In this document: positions 54,606 to 63,873 of the stretch, piece after piece
How positions within the stretch are numbered: position 1 is the stretch's first letter
Layout: every line of letters begins with the position of its first letter
Assembly (NCBI RefSeq): GCF_030227115.1
Contig: NZ_JASSUA010000002.1
Location: 248,001 to 312,000 of the forward strand
DNA length: 64,000 bases
Direction of reading: 5' to 3'
From: Marinobacter sp. SS13-12
Lineage (GTDB): Bacteria > Pseudomonadota > Gammaproteobacteria > Pseudomonadales > Oleiphilaceae
The notes under the pieces: model-generated
What the model was told of the DNA's origin: nothing
The model's input: the letters and a program-made list of their open reading frames with translations, nothing else
The model's database searches: none
Made by a program: the position numbers and the translations under genes

Positions 54606-54636
54606 ACGATGCTGGCTAGAGTTATACGAACAGGGG

Positions 54637-54708
54637 CATATAACTCCAGTGATTCTACCTCATGCACTTGAATCTACGGGTTTTTTATCGAAGGTGCCGG
54701 GGTTATGC
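54637..54708 (+). repeat. attC-like site 1
   Basis: The site runs from ATATAAC (54638) to GTTATGC (54708), about 70 bases. The two arms pair imperfectly (TAACtCCaG...TTC against TAACcCCgG...TTC), as in integron attC sites. A second core-like GTTATAC lies at 54621-54627, so the segment between the two cores is an 81-base cassette with no gene. Confidence 0.6.
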
Positions 54709-54731
54709 GAACGGGTTCGTATAATACGCAG

Positions 54732-55133
54732 TTATGTTTCTCTCAGAGCAGGCTCGAGCCCAAGGTGCTCAACAAAAGGAATGAAGTCGCGATCCAAAAA
54801 CAGTAAAGGTAGCTCCATCTCTATGCAGAAGGTTGCGATGATCACATCAGCAGTTTTTCTGATTGTGATGCCCCGTTTTCGAAGCGCTCGGTAGTTGTCG
54901 GCGCATTTGGCTGCCATGTCTTTGCCAAACATCTCATACTGCTCAAGCGCGAGCAGGCTTTGTTTGGTCTGACGATATTGTTTGTCGTTGCGAATGCCTT
55001 GCAGGATTTCCAGAAATATGAGGTCGCCGATAGCGACGGATCCGTGGACTATTGAGGCATCCAACAGGTCAGTGTGCGGGTTTATGACTCCGTTGAAATA
55101 GTCGATCCAGACACTGGTATCCACCAATATCAT
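54732..55133 (-). CDS. vapC: VapC-type PIN-domain toxin
   Basis: Ribonuclease toxin of 133 residues. The PIN acidic residues are present: Asp5 in LVDTSVWID, Glu in FLEILQGIR (about 42), Asp in RKTADVIIATF (about 96) and Asp in LFLDRDF (about 114). It overlaps the antitoxin gene by four bases in the usual order. The pair points against the direction of the other cassettes, which is common for toxin-antitoxin cassettes that carry their own promoter. Confidence 0.92.
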   Translation of the reverse strand: MILVDTSVWIDYFNGVINPHTDLLDASIVHGSVAIGDLIFLEILQGIRNDKQYRQTKQSLLALEQYEMFGKDMAAKCADNYRALRKRGITIRKTADVIIATFCIEMELPLLFLDRDFIPFVEHLGLEPALRET

Positions 55134-55324
55134 CCGGCGCTCCGCATTTCATCCAGGTCGCCTTCCCACTTGATTTTGCCTCGCAGCTTTCGAATTTCCT
55201 GCTGCTTGCTAAGCTGAACTAGAAGTTTCAGGCCTTGCTCAACGGCCTCTTTTTTGGTTTCGTAGCCAGAGGCTTTGAGAGCTTCGGCCATCAACTGGTC
55301 GTCTATGACGATGTTCGTTCTCAT
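55130..55324 (-). CDS. vapB: VapB-type antitoxin
   Basis: Antitoxin of 64 residues with the ribbon-helix-helix start MRTNIVIDDQLMAEALKASG and a C-terminal toxin-binding tail (RGKIKWEGDLDEMR). It neutralises VapC and represses its own promoter. ATG 55324 is chosen as the family's normal start; an upstream in-frame ATG would add 13 residues. Confidence 0.9.
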   Translation of the reverse strand: MRTNIVIDDQLMAEALKASGYETKKEAVEQGLKLLVQLSKQQEIRKLRGKIKWEGDLDEMRSAG

Positions 55325-55381
55325 GTCGCACCTATGTGTATCGATGTCGGTTTTTATACACAATCTAGCACTTCAGGAAGA

Positions 55382-55459
55382 ACATAACAATCGGCTGCAC
55401 AGCGACCGATTTTCCGCCGCTTAGCGGCTCCAAACCGGCGCGTGAGCCGGGCGTTATAT
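55382..55459 (+). repeat. attC-like site 2
   Basis: The best attC candidate, 78 bases from CATAACAATCGGCTGCAC to the end GTGAGCCGGGCGTTATAT. The arms fold as CATAAC / GTTATATG, CGGCT / AGCCG and CAC / GTG with unpaired bases between, and the tip contains GCCGCTTAGCGGC. The ATG of the next gene is 11 bases further on, the usual cassette layout. Confidence 0.75.
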
Positions 55460-55469
55460 GAATTGAAGC

Positions 55470-56498
55470 ATGGATATCCTGCAGAAGGCATTTGATGAAG
55501 CAGTGCAAGAGCTTGCTCAATCCGCTACATCTGAGGAAGAGCTTGACGCGATATCCGATGCTCTTCCTGATCAACTTGAAGATTTACTTGGACACTTGCC
55601 GGATCAGATTCTCTCGACAATCCAGGAGAATGCACGCGATGGCCTGGAAGAGCGGAGGGCTAATCATGCAGCATTTGTCAGTCGCGATATCACCCGATGG
55701 CAAAAGGGGTTCGATCAGCTAGAACTGTTAATTGAAATTGCAGTAGAAGCCGGAGGGTCGTTCAACGAAAGGCTTCGGCCTGACGCGGCAGAGCAAACGG
55801 ACATCTTGTTCGATATTGTTGTCAGGCTCCACGCAAAGGGGTGTCTTATAGGCAAAGAGATCCTTGCTTTGCTTAAGAACGGTTTTGCGGATGGAGCGCA
55901 TGCGCGATGGCGTGCACTTCATGAGATATCTGTTACTGCGATGTTCCTAGCCAAACACGGGGAGGCGGCAGCGCTCAGCTACTCTGACTTCGAATTTGTC
56001 GACGCGTATAAAGGCGCATCGCAACTCAATCACTACGAATCTCGTATCAATGCGTCCGGCTTCAGTGACGAGGAGATTAGTGAGTTCAAGTCACAATATG
56101 ATGCTGTCCTCGCCAAGCATGGTACGCACTTTAAGGAGCCTTACGGGTGGGCTGCTGAGTTCTTGTCAAAGGGAAGGCCAACCTTCTTCGCGCTTGAGGA
56201 GGACGTAGGGTTAGATCATTGGCGCCCGTACTACAAATGGGCAAGCCAGATTATTCACGCAAATATCAAATCACTTCGGAGCTCGCTCGGTCGATCTGAG
56301 ACTGCTGAAGATATTCTACAAGTAGGGCCCAGCAACTCCGGCATGACTGATCCCGCGCATTCAACAGCCATATCCTTGCTCCAACTGACCTGTACAACTC
56401 TCTTCCTGTCGCCGAATTTTGACGACCTCGTTACGGCAAAGGTGCTCGCGACATTATCCGATCAAGTAGGGGAGTCGTTCTTTGACTGCGATCGATAG
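55470..56498 (+). CDS. DUF5677 domain-containing protein (cassette gene)
   Basis: Soluble helical protein of 342 residues, matched to the DUF5677 family by GCLIGKEILALLKNGFADGAHARWRALHEISVTAMFL (about 128-165) and YKWASQIIHANIKSL (about 255-269). The N-terminal 70 residues are acidic and helical. Function unknown; such proteins are frequent in mobile and defence-rich regions. G+C is visibly lower than in the surrounding chromosome. It fills one cassette between attC site 2 and the half-site at 56505. Confidence 0.8.
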   Translation: MDILQKAFDEAVQELAQSATSEEELDAISDALPDQLEDLLGHLPDQILSTIQENARDGLEERRANHAAFVSRDITRWQKGFDQLELLIEIAVEAGGSFNERLRPDAAEQTDILFDIVVRLHAKGCLIGKEILALLKNGFADGAHARWRALHEISVTAMFLAKHGEAAALSYSDFEFVDAYKGASQLNHYESRINASGFSDEEISEFKSQYDAVLAKHGTHFKEPYGWAAEFLSKGRPTFFALEEDVGLDHWRPYYKWASQIIHANIKSLRSSLGRSETAEDILQVGPSNSGMTDPAHSTAISLLQLTCTTLFLSPNFDDLVTAKVLATLSDQVGESFFDCDR

Positions 56499-56504
56499 CC
56501 GCCC

Positions 56505-56529
56505 ATATAACAAGAGCCATCAAACAGCT
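56505..56529 (+). repeat. attC left half-site
   Basis: ATATAACAAGAGCCATC has the form of the left end of an attC site, six bases after the DUF5677 stop codon, but the matching right half does not follow. The next right-type end (GGCGTTATAC) is at 57213-57219, after the Rho fragment. Confidence 0.55.
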
Positions 56530-57237
56530 ATGACGAGAAAGACATTAGGTTTAACCCGGAAACCAAATAAAGACGCTAAACCAGTGGCTAAGGAAGCCGA
56601 AGCTATGGTTGAGGTTGAAGGTGAGGCTGATCCACAAAAACGTTTTTTAAACGGTGTGGCTATCAATCCAACGCCGGGGATTCGCCTGGAGTCAGGTTCC
56701 GAAAAACTCACGGTGCGCGCGATGGATTTGATCACGCCGATTGGAATGGGGCAGCGGGGTTTGATAGTTGCACCGCCGGGGTCTGGAAAGTCGACGATTT
56801 TAAAAGATATTTGCCAAGCGGTGGGAAAGGCGTATCCCGACATTAAACTTTACGCGTTATTGATCGATGAGCGACCCGAAGAGGTGACTGATTTCAAGCG
56901 TAGCGTCCCGGCTGAGGTACACGCTTCTTCTTCGGATGAAAGCTATGCTCATCACGCTCGCGTTGCCGATGAGCTTTTTGATATCGCTCGCCAACAAGCT
57001 GGCGAGGGTCACAACGTCATGATTGTGATTGATTCTCTCACGAGGCTTGCGCGTGTGCACAATGCGGAGCGAAAGAGCAGCGGTCGTACTATGTCTGGCG
57101 GGGTTGATGCTCGAGCGATGGAGATCCCGCGCAGGTTGTTTGGCGCTGCACGAAACATTGAAAATGGCGGCTCGCTTACCATTTTGGCAACCGTGTACTG
57201 GTGCCTGCTGGCGTTATACATCAAAGGAGGATTCTGA
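56530..57237 (+). CDS. truncated Rho transcription-termination factor (ATPase core only)
   Basis: The 235-residue reading frame resembles the Rho ATPase core: LTVRAMDLITPIGMGQRGLIVAPPGSGKST with an intact P-loop (about residues 56-86), LLIDERPEEVTDFKRSV (about 108-124), VHASSSDESYAHH, IVIDSLTRLARVHNAE (Walker B) and GGVDARAMEIPRRLFGAARNIENGGSLTILAT. It lacks the N-terminal RNA-binding domain and everything after LAT, where the frame runs into attC-like sequence (VYWCLLALYIKGGF). The Q- and R-loop region is therefore lost, so it should not terminate transcription. The PAEVHASSSDE and PTPGIRLES wording recalls Rho from Verrucomicrobia or Planctomycetes, suggesting transfer. It could be a dead remnant or a dominant-negative-type protein. 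Confidence 0.75.
   Translation: MTRKTLGLTRKPNKDAKPVAKEAEAMVEVEGEADPQKRFLNGVAINPTPGIRLESGSEKLTVRAMDLITPIGMGQRGLIVAPPGSGKSTILKDICQAVGKAYPDIKLYALLIDERPEEVTDFKRSVPAEVHASSSDESYAHHARVADELFDIARQQAGEGHNVMIVIDSLTRLARVHNAERKSSGRTMSGGVDARAMEIPRRLFGAARNIENGGSLTILATVYWCLLALYIKGGF
57194..57219 (+). repeat. attC right half-site
   Basis: TACTGGTGCCTGCTGGCGTTATAC has the form of the right arm of an attC site and ends 19 bases before the next cassette gene. Its left partner is not adjacent; the half-site at 56505 may be the other half of the same site. Confidence 0.5.
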
Positions 57238-57654
57238 ATGAAGCCAAGGATCAGCATGATTACGCTGGGCGTCAGTGATCTGGAAGTGTCGGTACGCTTC
57301 TATGAGCAGGGGCTTGGCCTGCCGAGGATGGATTCACCGCCAGAGGTCGCCTTCTTCACACTCAATGGCAGCTGGCTCGGACTATACGGGCGGGAATCGT
57401 TGGCGAAAGACGTGGGGATACCTGCCGAAGGCAGCGGGTTCGCCGGCTTCACGATTGCGCATAACGTGGATTCCGAGGCGGCAGTTGACGAACTTATGGA
57501 ACAGGCTGTGTTAGCAGGTGCGAAAGTGGTGAAACCCGCTCAGAAGGTGTTCTGGGGCGGTTACTCCGGCTACTTTGCCGATCCAGACGGTTATCTGTGG
57601 GAGGTCGCGCATAACCCCCTCTTTTGGGTTGGTCCGAAGGATGAAGAAGCCTAA
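57238..57654 (+). CDS. VOC (glyoxalase/bleomycin resistance) family protein
   Basis: The 138-residue protein has the two beta-alpha-beta-beta-beta modules of the VOC superfamily: ISMITLGVSDLEVSVRFYEQGLGL (about 4-27) and FAGFTIAHNVDSEAAVDELMEQAVLAG (about 68-95), ending YSGYFADPDGYLWEVAHNP with the metal-binding Glu in LWEVA. Substrate unknown. A strong AAAGGAGG site precedes the ATG. Its stop codon forms part of the attC-like GCCTAAC that follows. Confidence 0.92.
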   Translation: MKPRISMITLGVSDLEVSVRFYEQGLGLPRMDSPPEVAFFTLNGSWLGLYGRESLAKDVGIPAEGSGFAGFTIAHNVDSEAAVDELMEQAVLAGAKVVKPAQKVFWGGYSGYFADPDGYLWEVAHNPLFWVGPKDEEA

Positions 57655-57671
57655 CCAGGCAGTGGAAGGAG
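57649..57671 (+). repeat. attC left end, truncated
   Basis: GCCTAACCAGGCAGTGGAAGG begins with a perfect RYYYAAC core (GCCTAAC) but has no right arm; the GFA gene begins at 57677. A deletion between this end and the next cassette is the simplest reading. Confidence 0.5.
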
Positions 57672-57676
57672 TTCTA

Positions 57677-58078
57677 ATGACTGATCATTTGGGTTCTTGT
57701 CTGTGCGGCACTGTAAGTTTTGAGGTAAAAGGTGATTTCGACAGTTTTTACCTGTGCCATTGTCAGCATTGCCAAAAAGATACAGGTTCGGCTCATGCGG
57801 CAAATCTATTCTCAAGTTCAGCTAAATTGGTCTGGCAGTCGGGTGCAGATGCTGTGACTTCCTTTACGCTCCCCGGCACTCGTCATAACAAAAGCTTTTG
57901 TAAGTTGTGTGGTTCAGCATTGCCAGACACTCAGATCGCAGGTTTGCTCGTCGTTCCCGCAGGGTGTTTGGACACTGAAATCGCCATGTTGCCAACTGCG
58001 CATATTTTCTCATCCAGCAAAGCTGCTTGGGATGAGGGGTTAGGGGAGGTGCCAAAGTTCGAGGGACTGCCAGCTTGA
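57677..58078 (+). CDS. GFA family protein (cassette gene)
   Basis: Zinc-binding protein of 133 residues with the GFA cysteine pattern: SCLCGTVSFEV (about 7-17), CHCQHCQKDTGSAHA (about 28-42) and FCKLCGSALPD (about 75-85). Substrate unknown. It differs clearly from the chromosomal GFA protein near 38.5 kb and has lower G+C. GGAAGGAG precedes ATG 57677. A well-formed attC-like site follows the stop codon. Confidence 0.9.
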   Translation: MTDHLGSCLCGTVSFEVKGDFDSFYLCHCQHCQKDTGSAHAANLFSSSAKLVWQSGADAVTSFTLPGTRHNKSFCKLCGSALPDTQIAGLLVVPAGCLDTEIAMLPTAHIFSSSKAAWDEGLGEVPKFEGLPA

Positions 58079-58087
58079 GCTACCATC

Positions 58088-58157
58088 ACATAACCAGTGG
58101 CTGTTGTCGGGCGCACCTACGCTGCGCTCCGGCACGCCGCAAAGCCGCGCGTTAGCC
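58088..58157 (+). repeat. attC-like site 3
   Basis: The 70-base site runs from CATAACCAGTGGCTGTTG to GCCGCGCGTTAGCC. The arms match as TAACCAGTGGCTGTTG against TAACGCGCGGCTTTG with small gaps, and the tip is rich in G+C (CGCTGCGCTCCGG). It lies between the GFA stop and the enoyl-CoA hydratase start, as expected for a cassette. Confidence 0.72.
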
Positions 58158-58176
58158 AGCTTCAATAGGACCCCGT

Positions 58177-59118
58177 ATGGAAAAGTTAATCGAAACGGAA
58201 CAGCATGGACGCATAGTGATCGCGAAATTCAGCAATCCGCCGTATGCGTTGCTGACAGAATCAATGTGCAATGAACTCAATGAATTGATCGTGTCGGTAG
58301 ATCGCGATCAGAATGTCGGTGTTGTGGTGTTTACCGGTTACGACCCCAATAGATTCATATCCCATTACGATGTTGGTGAACTGTTGGAAGTAGCCGAAAG
58401 CTCACCGTCTATCTCAATAGGTCAGGCCAGATTTGCATTGGCCGCTGTCAGGGCGCTAAAAAGAATTCCCGGAATGCGGTGGCTGCTCCAAAAATCACCG
58501 GCTGCAGGCCTCCTACAGTTACAAAAACTCCATGAAACCTTGCAACTGATGGGGCGCAGTGGGACGATTTTTATCGCTGCAATCAACGGCCAAACAGGGG
58601 GCGGTGGCTTAGAATTCACACTCGCATGCGATATACGCTTTATATCCGATAGTGCAGAACTTGCACAATTCGAAGTTTTGCTCGGTTTCCCGCCCGGAGC
58701 AGGTGGGACTCAAAGATTGTCACGCCTTATCGGGCGTGGTGCAGCTTTAGAGCTCATGCTTACTGGTAGGGGAATCTCACCTAAAGAATGTTTATCCCTG
58801 GGACTCGTATCTGAGGTGATTCCTCATGAAAAGCTGCTTGACCAGGTTCTCAGGAAGGCGGAACCGCTATCTCATCGCAGCAAAGCTGCTGTAGCGGTGA
58901 TTAAGCAGTCGGTTATCGAAGGCGGGTCTTTGGCGCTCGAGAAGGGTTTGCAACTGGAGCAAAGCGTATTTCTATCATTGTTAGGGTCAAGTGGCGCGAA
59001 AAGGGCTTCTAAAGCATACGTTGAGTTCATTGATTCAAAGAAAGTTCTTCCCGTAAATGACCCAATCGCGAGAACAAAACTAGAGGCTGGTAGTTTTGTA
59101 GATCTAACCGATGGCTAA
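58177..59118 (+). CDS. enoyl-CoA hydratase/isomerase family protein (cassette gene)
   Basis: Crotonase-fold protein of 313 residues. It has VGVVVFTGYDPNRFISHYD, the oxyanion-hole region FIAAINGQTGGGGLEFTLACDIRFIS (about 129-154) and the second helix VLLGFPPGAGGTQRL (about 168-182), where the usual catalytic Glu positions read PPGAGGTQ. The insertion between residues 75 and 120 (RALKRIPGMRWLLQKSP) is unusual. It is an unexpected fatty-acid-type gene in a cassette position, with low G+C. An attC-like site begins at its stop codon. Confidence 0.9.
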   Translation: MEKLIETEQHGRIVIAKFSNPPYALLTESMCNELNELIVSVDRDQNVGVVVFTGYDPNRFISHYDVGELLEVAESSPSISIGQARFALAAVRALKRIPGMRWLLQKSPAAGLLQLQKLHETLQLMGRSGTIFIAAINGQTGGGGLEFTLACDIRFISDSAELAQFEVLLGFPPGAGGTQRLSRLIGRGAALELMLTGRGISPKECLSLGLVSEVIPHEKLLDQVLRKAEPLSHRSKAAVAVIKQSVIEGGSLALEKGLQLEQSVFLSLLGSSGAKRASKAYVEFIDSKKVLPVNDPIARTKLEAGSFVDLTDG

Positions 59119-59279
59119 CACATATGAGCCTTCTCGGATTCAATAGGCAATAGTCATTTTTTTGGCCGCGCCAGCGGCCAACCTAAACCCATGAGCGAGA
59201 ACGCCTGCTTCGTCAGTCTCATTTGGCTGTCAGGCACTTGCAGCAAACACATATAGGGGCTCTCTAACGTGGCGTTAGG
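59112..59279 (+). repeat. long attC-like site 4
   Basis: It begins with GGCTAACACATATGAGCC overlapping the hydratase stop and ends GCTCTCTAACGTGGCGTTAGG at 59279; GAGCC / GGCTC and GGCTAAC / GTTAGGC pair across it. An internal GGCCGCGCCAGCGGCC hairpin lies near 59164. At about 168 bases it is long for an attC, so two fused sites are also possible. The IS110-type element starts right at its GTTAGGC end. Confidence 0.5.
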
Positions 59280-59292
59280 CCACAGCCTGACC

Positions 59293-59581
59293 CGTCGTTC
59301 CATCGGTCGGTCAGGGGCACCAGACAGTCATCGGTTAACCGGTCACTGGCACTATTCAAGGTGTCGGGCTGCAAGGCTCCAGTTAGGTTAAGGCTCAGGA
59401 CCGGTGTAAGCGCACTGGCTCATGGTATTAAGGCACGCCCACGGGCTGGCTAATCAAAGCATCTGGTTTCAACATCGGTGACAGAAAACCGCTTGGGTAT
59501 CGGGTACCAGTCAGCGGACTCGCAGTCTTCAGCGTCATCCTTTCTGATCCAGTTAGACGTCATGCTCAGCCCGTGGCGTGA
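59293..59581 (-). ncRNA. candidate bridge RNA region of the IS element
   Basis: About 290 bases of non-coding sequence lie between the transposase stop and the left inverted repeat, downstream on the transposase strand. In IS1111-type members of the IS110 family the bridge RNA is encoded on this long 3' side. Several hairpins are readable, for example CCTGACC / GGTCAGG at 59286-59315. I have not delimited the RNA or its target- and donor-binding loops. Confidence 0.45.
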
Positions 59582-60625
59582 CTAACCTCTCAGGAACCGT
59601 TGTTCATCGAACACCCTTTTGTCTTTGAGCATGAAGTACACCGCGCGCCCCAGCTTGTGCGCCAAGGCGGATAGGGCCTTGGGTTTGTTCATTCGCCTCT
59701 GGAGTTTTTCGACGTAGCGCTTGGCCTTGTCGTTGTTGCGAATAAACAACACGGCTGCTTCAGAGAACGCCCACTTCAAATGGGCATTGCCGATCTTGTT
59801 GCCCTGGGTGCCGTAGACCTTGCCGGCGGATTCCGCTTTGCACTTCACCAGGCGAGCGTAGGACGCGAACTTCTGAACGGATTCGAAGCGTTGAATATCG
59901 CCGACCTCATAGAGAATGGTCAGGGCCAGAATGCGACCTACTCCAGGAATGGTCTTCAGCACGTTGAGTGACGCCGCGTCGTGTTGTTTGGCCTGCTGCT
60001 CCAGATGCCATTCAAGCTTTTTGAGTTCGTGCTGATAACAATCGACGATGGCCAGGTCCAGATCGATGTTGCGCTGAACGTCTGGACCGGTAAAAGCAGC
60101 GGTGAGTTGTGACCGGCCGCCGGGGTTGTTGAGGTTGGCTTTGCTGGGCGGCAGATTGTACTGGCCCAGAGTGTTCACAGCGTGGGCCTTGAGCATAGCC
60201 CCATGCCGGACAATTCGAGTACGGCGACGCAACAGATCGCGGGTGGCCCGCATCTCCTTGGGATAGACGTAAGCCAGCGGGAAATTACCACCGCGCATGA
60301 GCATCGCGATCTTGAAGGAATCAATATGGTCGTTCTTGGTTTTGCCGCCATGGATCGCCTTCATGTACAGCGCATGGCCCAGAATGAAGTGGATGCCGTG
60401 TTCTTCGCACAGGTCTGAGATCCAGTACCAGCAGTGCATGCATTCGACACCCACGACGAGATCATCGCGAAAGGGTTCCAGCAGAGCCAGTAGCGGTTCC
60501 GGCCGGGCTTTGATTTCCTTGTGCAGCAGCACTTCGCCCTGCTGGTCGATGATGCAGACGTAGAGGCTGCGGGCGTGCAGATCGATTCCACAATAATGGC
60601 GGTGGGTGCTATGGTAAAAGTTCAT
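59582..60625 (-). CDS. IS110 family transposase (DEDD)
   Basis: Transposase of 347 residues. The RuvC-like DEDD residues are in CGIDLHARSLYVCI (Asp about 14), VVGVECMHCWYW (Glu about 60) and KTKNDHIDSFKIAML (two Asp, about 93-96). The C-terminal Tnp domain has IPGVGRILALTILYEVGDI (about 205-223) and FASYARLVKCKAESAGKVYGTQGNKIGNAHLKWAFSEAA, with the nucleophilic Ser likely in AESAGK. The start at 60625 has GGGAGAAG; the in-frame extension to 60715 lacks a site. It appears complete and may be active. Confidence 0.93.
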   Translation of the reverse strand: MNFYHSTHRHYCGIDLHARSLYVCIIDQQGEVLLHKEIKARPEPLLALLEPFRDDLVVGVECMHCWYWISDLCEEHGIHFILGHALYMKAIHGGKTKNDHIDSFKIAMLMRGGNFPLAYVYPKEMRATRDLLRRRTRIVRHGAMLKAHAVNTLGQYNLPPSKANLNNPGGRSQLTAAFTGPDVQRNIDLDLAIVDCYQHELKKLEWHLEQQAKQHDAASLNVLKTIPGVGRILALTILYEVGDIQRFESVQKFASYARLVKCKAESAGKVYGTQGNKIGNAHLKWAFSEAAVLFIRNNDKAKRYVEKLQRRMNKPKALSALAHKLGRAVYFMLKDKRVFDEQRFLRG

Positions 60626-60859
60626 TGAGTCTTCTCCCTTGTAGTGCTTGGTCGCCTTCCAGCTTAGCGGGCAACCGCTGGGCTGGGGAGAAGGCTCAAT
60701 CAGTATCAAGGCCAATCACGGCGACGCCTACTGCATTGCGGCTTCGCCTCCATTCCGTAGCCGCGCATGCTGGCTGGCGATAGGCCCGGTCAGCCTCTGT
60801 GCTGAGCAACGTCCAGTGTGAATGGGCCTGAAATTCATACCTTTCGGGAGGGCATGGCT

Positions 60860-61081
60860 ATGGTCGATGTAGTCTTGGATTCAACTATTAAATGTCCACA
60901 CTGTGGCCACCAGAAAGCGGAAACGATGCCTACCGACTCATGCCAGTATTTCTACGAGTGTGAGTCTTGCCATGTTTTACTAAAGCCCAAGCATGGAGAC
61001 TGCTGTGTTTTTTGCTCATACGGCACAGTACCGTGTCCACCGATTCAACAAGGGTCAGGGTGTTGTACTCCTGGCCCATAA
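60860..61081 (+). CDS. GDCCVxC domain-containing protein
   Basis: Cys-rich protein of 73 residues with CPHCGH (about 12-17) and the family motif HGDCCVFCSYGTVPCPP (about 49-65). The GDCCVxC family is small, of unknown function, and often sits in mobile regions with metal-resistance or redox genes. ATG 60860 has GGGAGG eight bases before; ATG 60854 is too close to it. Its stop codon begins an attC-like CATAACAAGTG, so it may be the last cassette of the array. Confidence 0.88.
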   Translation: MVDVVLDSTIKCPHCGHQKAETMPTDSCQYFYECESCHVLLKPKHGDCCVFCSYGTVPCPPIQQGSGCCTPGP

Positions 61082-61095
61082 CAAGTGACTATGGT
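61077..61095 (+). repeat. attC left end, partial
   Basis: CATAACAAGTGACTATGG at the GDCCVxC stop codon resembles the left ends of the other attC-like sites. I find no convincing right arm in the 60 bases before the tautomerase gene, so it may be the worn end of the array. Confidence 0.4.
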
Positions 61096-61614: not shown

Positions 61615-61947
61615 TTAATGCACAGTAGCCTTCGAGAACAGGTTAATCACCGCAACACCGGTAATGATGAGCGCTATACCAATCACACTGGCGGCATCCA
61701 GAGTTTGCCCGTAAATCAGCCAGCCGATAAACGTCACCAACACAATTCCCAGCCCGGCCCAGATGGCATAGGCCAGGCCCACCGGGATTTCCTTCAGTGT
61801 GATCGAGAGGAAATAAAAGGCGACGGTATAGCCCACAATCACCAGCAGGCTGGGCCAGAGCCTGGTAAACCCATCACTGGCTTTCAGCCCGCTGGTTGCG
61901 ACCACTTCTGCAACAATGGCAATGCCAAGAAATAACCAACTTTTCAC
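61615..61947 (-). CDS. SMR family multidrug efflux protein (EmrE/QacE-like)
   Basis: Four-TM small multidrug resistance pump of 110 residues. It starts with GTG ([37 protein letters not shown]), the membrane-embedded Glu14 that binds drug and proton being in [31 protein letters not shown] carries the essential Trp and Gly positions. It would export quaternary ammonium and other lipophilic cations. A GGAGA site lies seven bases upstream of GTG 61947; the longer in-frame reading has no membrane features and is not used. Confidence 0.93.
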
Positions 61948-62131
61948 AGTGAATCTCCAGTACCGCACGAAATTGGGACGCAGACGATACCAGCCCTCAT
62001 CGCTGCCTGACAGGGTGGCTATAGACAAGGCGGAGCTCCCGGGCCTGTGGTTGTGTTCCGGGGAGAGCTTGAGGCTGGCCTTTCTGTGCAGCACTATGAG
62101 GTAAAAGCGACTAAGGAAGGCGATACGTATT

Positions 62132-63129: not shown

Positions 63130-63648
63130 TTACGGCCCACCCACAGCGGGCCGCTTGTCCTTGGGCAGAAAGCCATCCTCCGCGAGTTTCAAATGCAGTT
63201 CCTGAGGCTTGAGGTGCGCGAGATCCTTGTAGACCTCGGTCAGCGTCACCTGGTCGGTGGGCAGGGCGTTTAGCTCCGGTCTCAGAACTCCGAGCATCTG
63301 GCTTTCGGCGCAGAGTACCAGGTGGCTGACGTTTTTCTCGCGTATGACCTGCTTCAAGTCGGCCACGATATCTTTGGCGAACTTGCGGTTGACCTGATGT
63401 TCGCGTTTGTCGCGGTGTTCGTCGTAATTGTGGTGCGGTACTGCCGTGCCTTGACCTCCCTGGTGCTCACGTTGCGCCCCGCGGCTATCGCTCCAGATCT
63501 CACTCTCGCTCGCCGTGTGTTCCGGGTTGGAGAGAGTCTTATACTCCGTCAGGTATGGGGACCTTTCCAATTCCGGTGTATCAGAGGATTCCAGCGTGAA
63601 AATCCGCGCTTTCGCTAGCTCTGCTGCAACGACACAGTATTCAGCCAT
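63130..63648 (-). CDS. host attachment family protein
   Basis: The 172-residue protein resembles the host-attachment family: CVVAAELAKARIFTLE (residues about 5-20), an Arg/Asp/His-rich middle, and RKFAKDIVADLKQVIREKNVSHLVLCAESQMLGVLRPEL (about 92-130) then EVYKDLAHLKPQELHLKL. Plant-symbiont members gave the name, but function elsewhere is unknown. ATG 63648 has TGGAGG six bases upstream; the longer in-frame reading to 63753 is less likely. Confidence 0.88.
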   Translation of the reverse strand: MAEYCVVAAELAKARIFTLESSDTPELERSPYLTEYKTLSNPEHTASESEIWSDSRGAQREHQGGQGTAVPHHNYDEHRDKREHQVNRKFAKDIVADLKQVIREKNVSHLVLCAESQMLGVLRPELNALPTDQVTLTEVYKDLAHLKPQELHLKLAEDGFLPKDKRPAVGGP

Positions 63649-63873
63649 GTTGGGCCTCCAAGTTTGTTCCCCCATAACTTTCCAGCCACTGTTGAACTGC
63701 TTTTCGGAAGCTGGCCCATAGGTCAGATGTTTGGTTGGGGGAAGATATTTCAAGGTGTTTCACCTCTGGCTCCGTTTATTGCCTTCCGAAAGGTCCATTC
63801 CTATACTCGCATAGCGGGGCGCTGCCTGATCGCCGCTGCGATCCGTCCAATTCCAATAAAAAAGGAAAACATC

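Follow-up and report, generated by a model that had tools for sequence, protein, structure and literature searches.

A cassette array without an integrase in Marinobacter as a likely satellite platform of a distributed chromosomal integron

Introduction

In the usual picture, an integron consists of one integrase, one attI site and one array of cassettes, and CALINs are regarded as leftovers. By definition a CALIN holds at least two attC sites with intI not nearby. The definition is that of PMC9024848, in its accessible part; in the same text the attI sites outside class 1 are poorly described and are not searched for by current tools.

The array analysed here, from a species of Marinobacter, resembles a CALIN: it has at least two attC sites, intI is not nearby and its cassettes mostly carry one gene. 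Unlike a typical CALIN, it begins with a predicted attI, and species share the platform but differ in the cassettes on it. A second close relative is the sedentary chromosomal integron. The likeness lies in the kind of attI, in attC sites that are similar within the genus and in a toxin-antitoxin cassette; the difference is that here intI does not lie in cis and a genome may hold several platforms.

Two further systems deserve comparison. The CALINs of Xanthomonas likewise lie away from intI, at seven recurrent loci, but the available portion of PMC12444791 reports no attI at these CALINs, whereas one is predicted here. In the delta-attI cassettes of mobile integrons, an attI is also found off its usual place, where IntI1 can use it. 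There, however, the attC of a resistance cassette has given way to a deleted attI, whereas the present case concerns a complete module at loci of the chromosome (PMC12901181, in the part available). In the open-licence literature we found no description of orphan, multiple or secondary attI sites, which is no proof of novelty.

Here we report a comparison of this array with its counterparts across the genus. Related species have landing sites at fixed chromosomal places and fill them with different genes, apparently by means of an integrase that is encoded elsewhere.

Materials and methods

The DNA comes from Marinobacter sp. SS13-12 (GCF_030227115.1, contig NZ_JASSUA010000002.1, positions 248,001-312,000 of the forward strand); this whole stretch of 64,000 nt is called the window. 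The genome (G000) comprises 4.64 Mb in 10 contigs, with the window on contig C2 (G000:C2:248001-312000). The comparison set held 124 genomes of the genus and 39 further genomes of the family. In the codes used below, G stands for genome, C for contig, L for a fetched locus and K for a flank cluster.

Simple motif scans for attC were dropped as too loose, since shuffled sequence matched too; a covariance model, R1, was therefore used. R1 was built from attC sites in stretches around intI of other genomes, with the window and its own genome excluded. Of 21 sites collected, 18 were aligned and three of 83-85 letters were left out; 13 of the 18 predicted pairs show changes on both sides with pairing kept. 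The Pfam scan covered ten proteins of the region, including a tautomerase that lies outside the array.

Class-A attI sites were found with a core pattern allowing up to 3 mismatches and were called linked when within 1.5 kb of a listed intI match. One of 132 rows, G004:C76:37785 (plus), was removed because it only reads the antisense strand of an overlapping palindrome. Around each of the 96 orphan sites outside the window's own genome, up to 8 kb was fetched, in some cases less because the contig ended. For flank clustering, left flanks minus the 450 bp next to the site were joined by single linkage; these 96 sequences were 94 orphans, the window and the second orphan site of its genome, on C1. 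Same-locus pairs (n=197) came from different genomes with an orphan site at a common locus, and their upstream homology had to span 500 bp or more. For class B, 20 of 44 orphan loci were fetched.

Results

The original prediction, made from the letters of the window, placed a CALIN-like cassette array at 54.6-61.1 kb and proposed a covariance-model search of 54-62 kb as a check. We ran the genus-trained R1 on the whole 64 kb, up to E=10. It gave three significant matches, all of them in the array and all on the plus strand (Table 1), so that both the array and its uniform attC orientation are upheld. Two R1 seeds closely resemble the matches at 55382 and 58088, because the same attC types recur across the genus; the scores of these two matches thus depend in part on sequence identity. 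The three matches reach E 5.2e-7 or better and lie 2.7 and 2.6 kb apart, which is more than the two attC sites that define a CALIN. The array has a G+C content of 0.522, the IS counted in, against 0.594 for 40.0-54.6 kb, in agreement with the low value noted for its genes.

The list of seven or eight sites had to be revised. Those at 55382 and 58088 are attC sites, and at 59112 begins an attC that is interrupted by the IS110-family element and completed at 60701-60785. The site at 57649 is not an attC: R1 has no match there up to E=10, and the VOC-GFA junction at this point is found again in the relative G042. The site at 54637 falls inside the attI module described below. Half-sites at 56505 and 57211-57219 flank a truncated rho gene, and the left TAAC half at 56505 is missing from the other rho copy in the genome; 61077 is the left half of an attC only.

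Table 1. Features of the cassette array, in window coordinates
Feature	Position	Strand	Basis
attI module, 114 bp (shortened; relative G042 has 280 bp)	54618-54731	+	homology to intI-proximal stretch of relatives
Cassette 1: VapC + VapB	54732-55453	+ (genes minus: VapC 54732-55133, VapB 55130-55363)	Pfam PIN, VapB_antitoxin
attC of cassette 1	55382-55459	+	R1 67 bits, E 1e-13
Cassette 2: gene for DUF5677 protein	55470-56498	+	Pfam DUF5677 116.8 bits
rho-like gene, 3'-truncated, between two attC half-sites	56530-57190	+	Rho profile match
Compound cassette with genes of the glyoxalase family (57238-57654) and the GFA family (57677-58078)	57214-58151	+	Pfam; no attC between genes
attC of compound cassette	58088-58157	+	R1 49.8 bits, E 1.5e-9
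Cassette with enoyl-CoA hydratase-family gene	58177-59118	+	Pfam ECH_1 138 bits
IS110-family element inside attC	59116-60698	- (transposase 59582-60634, minus)	NCBIfam IS110 225.6 bits
attC right part, beyond IS	60701-60785	+	R1 39.3 bits, E 5.2e-7; end cores decayed
Last cassette: small cysteine-rich ORF, with attC left half (61077) at end	60818-61081	+	no Pfam family

DNA of the last cassette (60818-61081) matches arrays in other genomes, and the truncated rho gene is 99% identical to a full-length copy on contig C1. That full-length cassette (L084 9861-10838, G000:C1) encodes a Rho-like ATPase of 325 residues; because the Rho profile matches only from position 126, the protein is without the N-terminal RNA-binding part. 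PADLOC fitted no defence model to six cassette proteins, with two weak matches for the rho-like protein, and nothing in Rfam matched at gathering scores. The transposase carries both the DEDD and the Transposase_20 domain, as expected of the IS110 family, and a near-complete copy of the element occurs in L130 (91%). Copies or pieces of it were also seen at contig ends in relatives (L042, L053, L104, L105). The IS1111 subgroup of IS110 targets attC sites.

What stands at the left edge of the array? Window positions 54611-54740 match the sequence that separates intI from the first cassette in other genomes, and the class-A core pattern matches at 54705-54734 with 1 mismatch. Crossover would be expected between G 54731 and T 54732. 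Of 30 intI loci compared, 20 carry a GAACNNGTTCG...GTTA core in the interval from intI to the first cassette; three of the remaining ten show class-A variants and seven show class B. Inside the module are several near-palindromic GTTATACGAAC...GTTCGTATAA units. Its left edge is a near-palindrome as well, typically GGAGTTATACGAACGCGTTCGCAAAACTCC, and the sequence preceding this edge differs. Judged by the parts of a complete integron, then, the locus has an attI, as recognized by homology, and no intI adjoining it.

The near-palindromic units, and the fact that attI function is assigned from sequence, would also suit a module of another kind: a promoter, terminator or palindromic repeat that merely precedes cassettes. 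We hold this to be very unlikely. The module occupies the place of attI at intI loci, homology between sisters stops at its core and attC sites lie only downstream. Moreover, a sigma-70 scan of 54.4-61.4 kb, which would also cover a cassette promoter (Pc), returned no promoter-like site. Cassettes might instead have been placed by IntI at a non-classical site (attG), with no part played by attI; such insertion is on record in the available portions of PMC12901181 and PMC12444791. This is extremely unlikely here, as the array starts at a copy of the genus attI, and so do arrays at other platforms.

Two candidate properties of the module were set aside. Complementarity between left flank and module interior shows a small excess over permuted pairs (reached by 5 of 2000 permutations, 4 positions); the rows come from related sequences, and many of them lack any signal. 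For homogenisation of attI copies inside single genomes the picture was mixed, and it is not claimed. Identity between loci of one genome averages 0.672 against 0.603 with shuffled genome labels (reached in 0 of 2000), but for orphans alone it is 0.621, below the same-locus value of 0.661. Only 23 of 124 comparisons place a copy from the same genome nearer than all the same-locus copies.

The original prediction named an ordinary conserved operon in sister strains as the contrary outcome. We find the flank kept in sister genomes and the cassettes differing. In G042, upstream identity is 92.5%, the array is different and larger, and the same sugE gene follows. A class-A attI lies at most 320 bp after the PCuAC gene in seven genomes (G000, G017, G042, G044, G057, G094 and G098), and G092 has a class-B attI 274 bp after it. 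G010 carries the PCuAC gene, then 44 bp, then the gene of window 63134-63755; the whole attI-array region can therefore be absent. At the C1 platform of the window's own genome, the single relative that lacks the module (G027, L189) has diverged too far for such a comparison.

The same contrast between platform and contents is seen in the 197 same-locus pairs. None of them has a first cassette in common, and 196 of them show no 100-bp homology in the 1 kb after the site. Yet 82 of the pairs are at least 85% identical upstream, with a maximum of 97.9%, and the platforms are shared up to GTTA.

Cassettes recur at other places. The VapBC cassette occurs at five: in the window, first after attI at another platform of G017, second at another platform of G068, and twice in G042, within the PCuAC array and near a partial intI. 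In all five the shared sequence starts at the core (GTTA in four, CTTA in G017), and this left boundary is an attI core twice and an attC core three times. G042 shows the rho-VOC-GFA order of the window too, at its counterpart of the C1 platform of G000; the C1 site of G000 itself carries a full-length rho. As a separate observation, sugE (window 61615-61950) lies to the right of the array in three genomes and to the left of attI in nine K2 flanks, which suggests rearrangement between platforms.

Orphan attI sites proved to be common in the genus. The class-A pattern found 131 sites in 71 of the 124 genomes, and a reversed-pattern control found 0. Of these sites 33 are linked to intI and 98 are orphans. 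On the strictest count the orphans number 97, with G065:C22 taken as near a match; this match comes from a divergent integrase that lies on the side of the cassettes. The 98 orphans are spread over 64 genomes, and in 26 of these a linked site occurs as well. The two orphans of the window's own genome are the window site and C1:669759. Outside the genus, 3 of 39 genomes of the family have the pattern; one of them, G152 (genus g11), has four class-A matches, with only short intI pieces found, one adjoining an attI match.

Left flanks fell into 19 clusters, 14 of which hold 3-18 members each. At E 0.01, R1 found 188 attC sites at the 96 orphan loci, every one downstream and on the same strand; in the 282 kb upstream it found none. 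At least one attC was present at 73 of the 96 loci, and for several of the other 23 the contig is too short. Predicted attI modules without intI thus stand at recurrent loci, arrays point away from them, and the cassettes of sisters differ from the attI core on.

A simpler explanation would be a plain CALIN: a complete integron at the window locus lost intI by decay and left attI and cassettes behind. CALINs have been proposed to be degraded integrons (PMC9024848, in its accessible part). Moreover, intI remnants persist to the left of the site at 5 of 96 orphan loci, so some orphans are former intI loci. We nevertheless consider it unlikely for this array. No intI remnant was found at the window locus, and the other six genomes with a class-A attI after PCuAC have their listed intI matches on other contigs, far away or not at all. 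The edges of homology also speak against decay. Among 96 orphan queries, cross-locus homology ends 280-299 bp before the GTTA end in 56, nearer in 29 and farther in 11. The edge shared by the 56 excludes the intI start, and decay would give ragged edges. For 20 intI-linked queries, homology reaches 486-501 bp, against a K3 member that retains part of the intI start. Nor are contig breaks the cause of the orphan state, since in 94 of the 96 loci the left flank extends for 1 kb or more on the contig. On the cassette side of five orphan loci lie integrase-like pieces that are divergent (29-34% identity); one of the five is the G065 locus mentioned above. At L140 and L115, the orphan attI is followed directly by a gene for a tyrosine recombinase (29-30% identity to IntI), placed like a first cassette.

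Where, then, is the integrase? Marinobacter-type genomes had been described as not the classical hosts of large arrays; the genus contradicts this, with intI over the TIGR02249 cut-off in 84 of 124 genomes and a match at E 1e-30 or better in 96. The window is free of intI over its 64 kb, as predicted. A search of the full genome for intI had been suggested, and it gave no TIGR02249 match at E 1e-30, near the array or elsewhere. A looser search detected an intI remnant on another contig (C3:96806-97283), which retains two parts of a class-A IntI, residues 1-118 and 292-327, with the middle missing. The remnant adjoins an array of about ten attC sites by eye, seven of which, one of these partial, pass E 0.01 with R1. 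Inside one attC site of this array lies a putative group II intron reverse transcriptase ORF, read by eye (L039 11260-13100, G000:C3). Other integrase-like pieces of the genome are 27-43% identical to IntI across the matched parts. In an IntI tree of 36 rows, 24 fall in class A, 8 in class B and 3 in class C; L060 forms a long, unreliable branch. The C3 remnant falls in class A, beside the intI of G004 (96/89). Over the whole genome, R1 gave 21 matches up to E=10: the window array, the C3 array, groups on C1 (around 102 kb, 671-675 kb and 905-907 kb), and weaker single or paired ones. Among the 64 orphan-bearing genomes, 14, this one included, have no intI match at E 1e-30, so service in trans is not current there.

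A second class of attI repeats the pattern. The class-B core gave 55 sites in 32 genomes, 11 near an intI match and 44 not. At the 20 orphan loci fetched, 47 of 47 attC sites lie downstream on the same strand, and 15 loci have at least one. Many class-B orphans share about 260-285 bp with intI-linked sites. As far as sequence can tell, class-B attI behaves like class A.

Discussion

The label CALIN-like was correct in that the array falls within the published definition. It is too narrow in that the array starts with an attI module, on a platform that recurs in other species with other cassettes. The array is a CALIN but not simply a degraded integron. We conclude that it very likely represents a satellite platform within a distributed chromosomal integron and received its cassettes through class-A IntI acting in trans. 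In this model, a copy of attI without intI would receive cassettes beside itself; class-A IntI, produced from its own locus, would act in trans, inserting and removing cassettes at each class-A attI. At the founding of platforms the module of about 280 bp may have moved as one unit, though this step is less certain.

The array is probably frozen now, because the class-A intI of this genome is broken and no other was found. Decayed attC sites, a shortened attI, a truncated rho cassette and the IS all fit a frozen array.

A bolder reading is that the integron spreads its own landing site. The module, from its near-palindromic left end to the attI core, would move like a cassette and found satellite arrays, giving a network of platforms with one integrase per class, in parallel in at least two IntI/attI classes. 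We offer this tentatively and think it somewhat doubtful. Two junctions read by eye, one inside intI (L175) and one after an attC-like stretch (K14), hint that the left end takes part in module spread; the 29 orphan queries whose cross-locus homology is shorter than 280 bp run counter to a fixed unit.

The arrays described here lack intI and own an attI; from species to species their position stays the same and their cassettes differ. Some CALINs may therefore be working satellite platforms. Such platforms would be missed by current tools, because attI sites outside class 1 are not searched for (PMC9024848, in the text available). They would provide a route by which a single integrase could reorganise many places in a chromosome.
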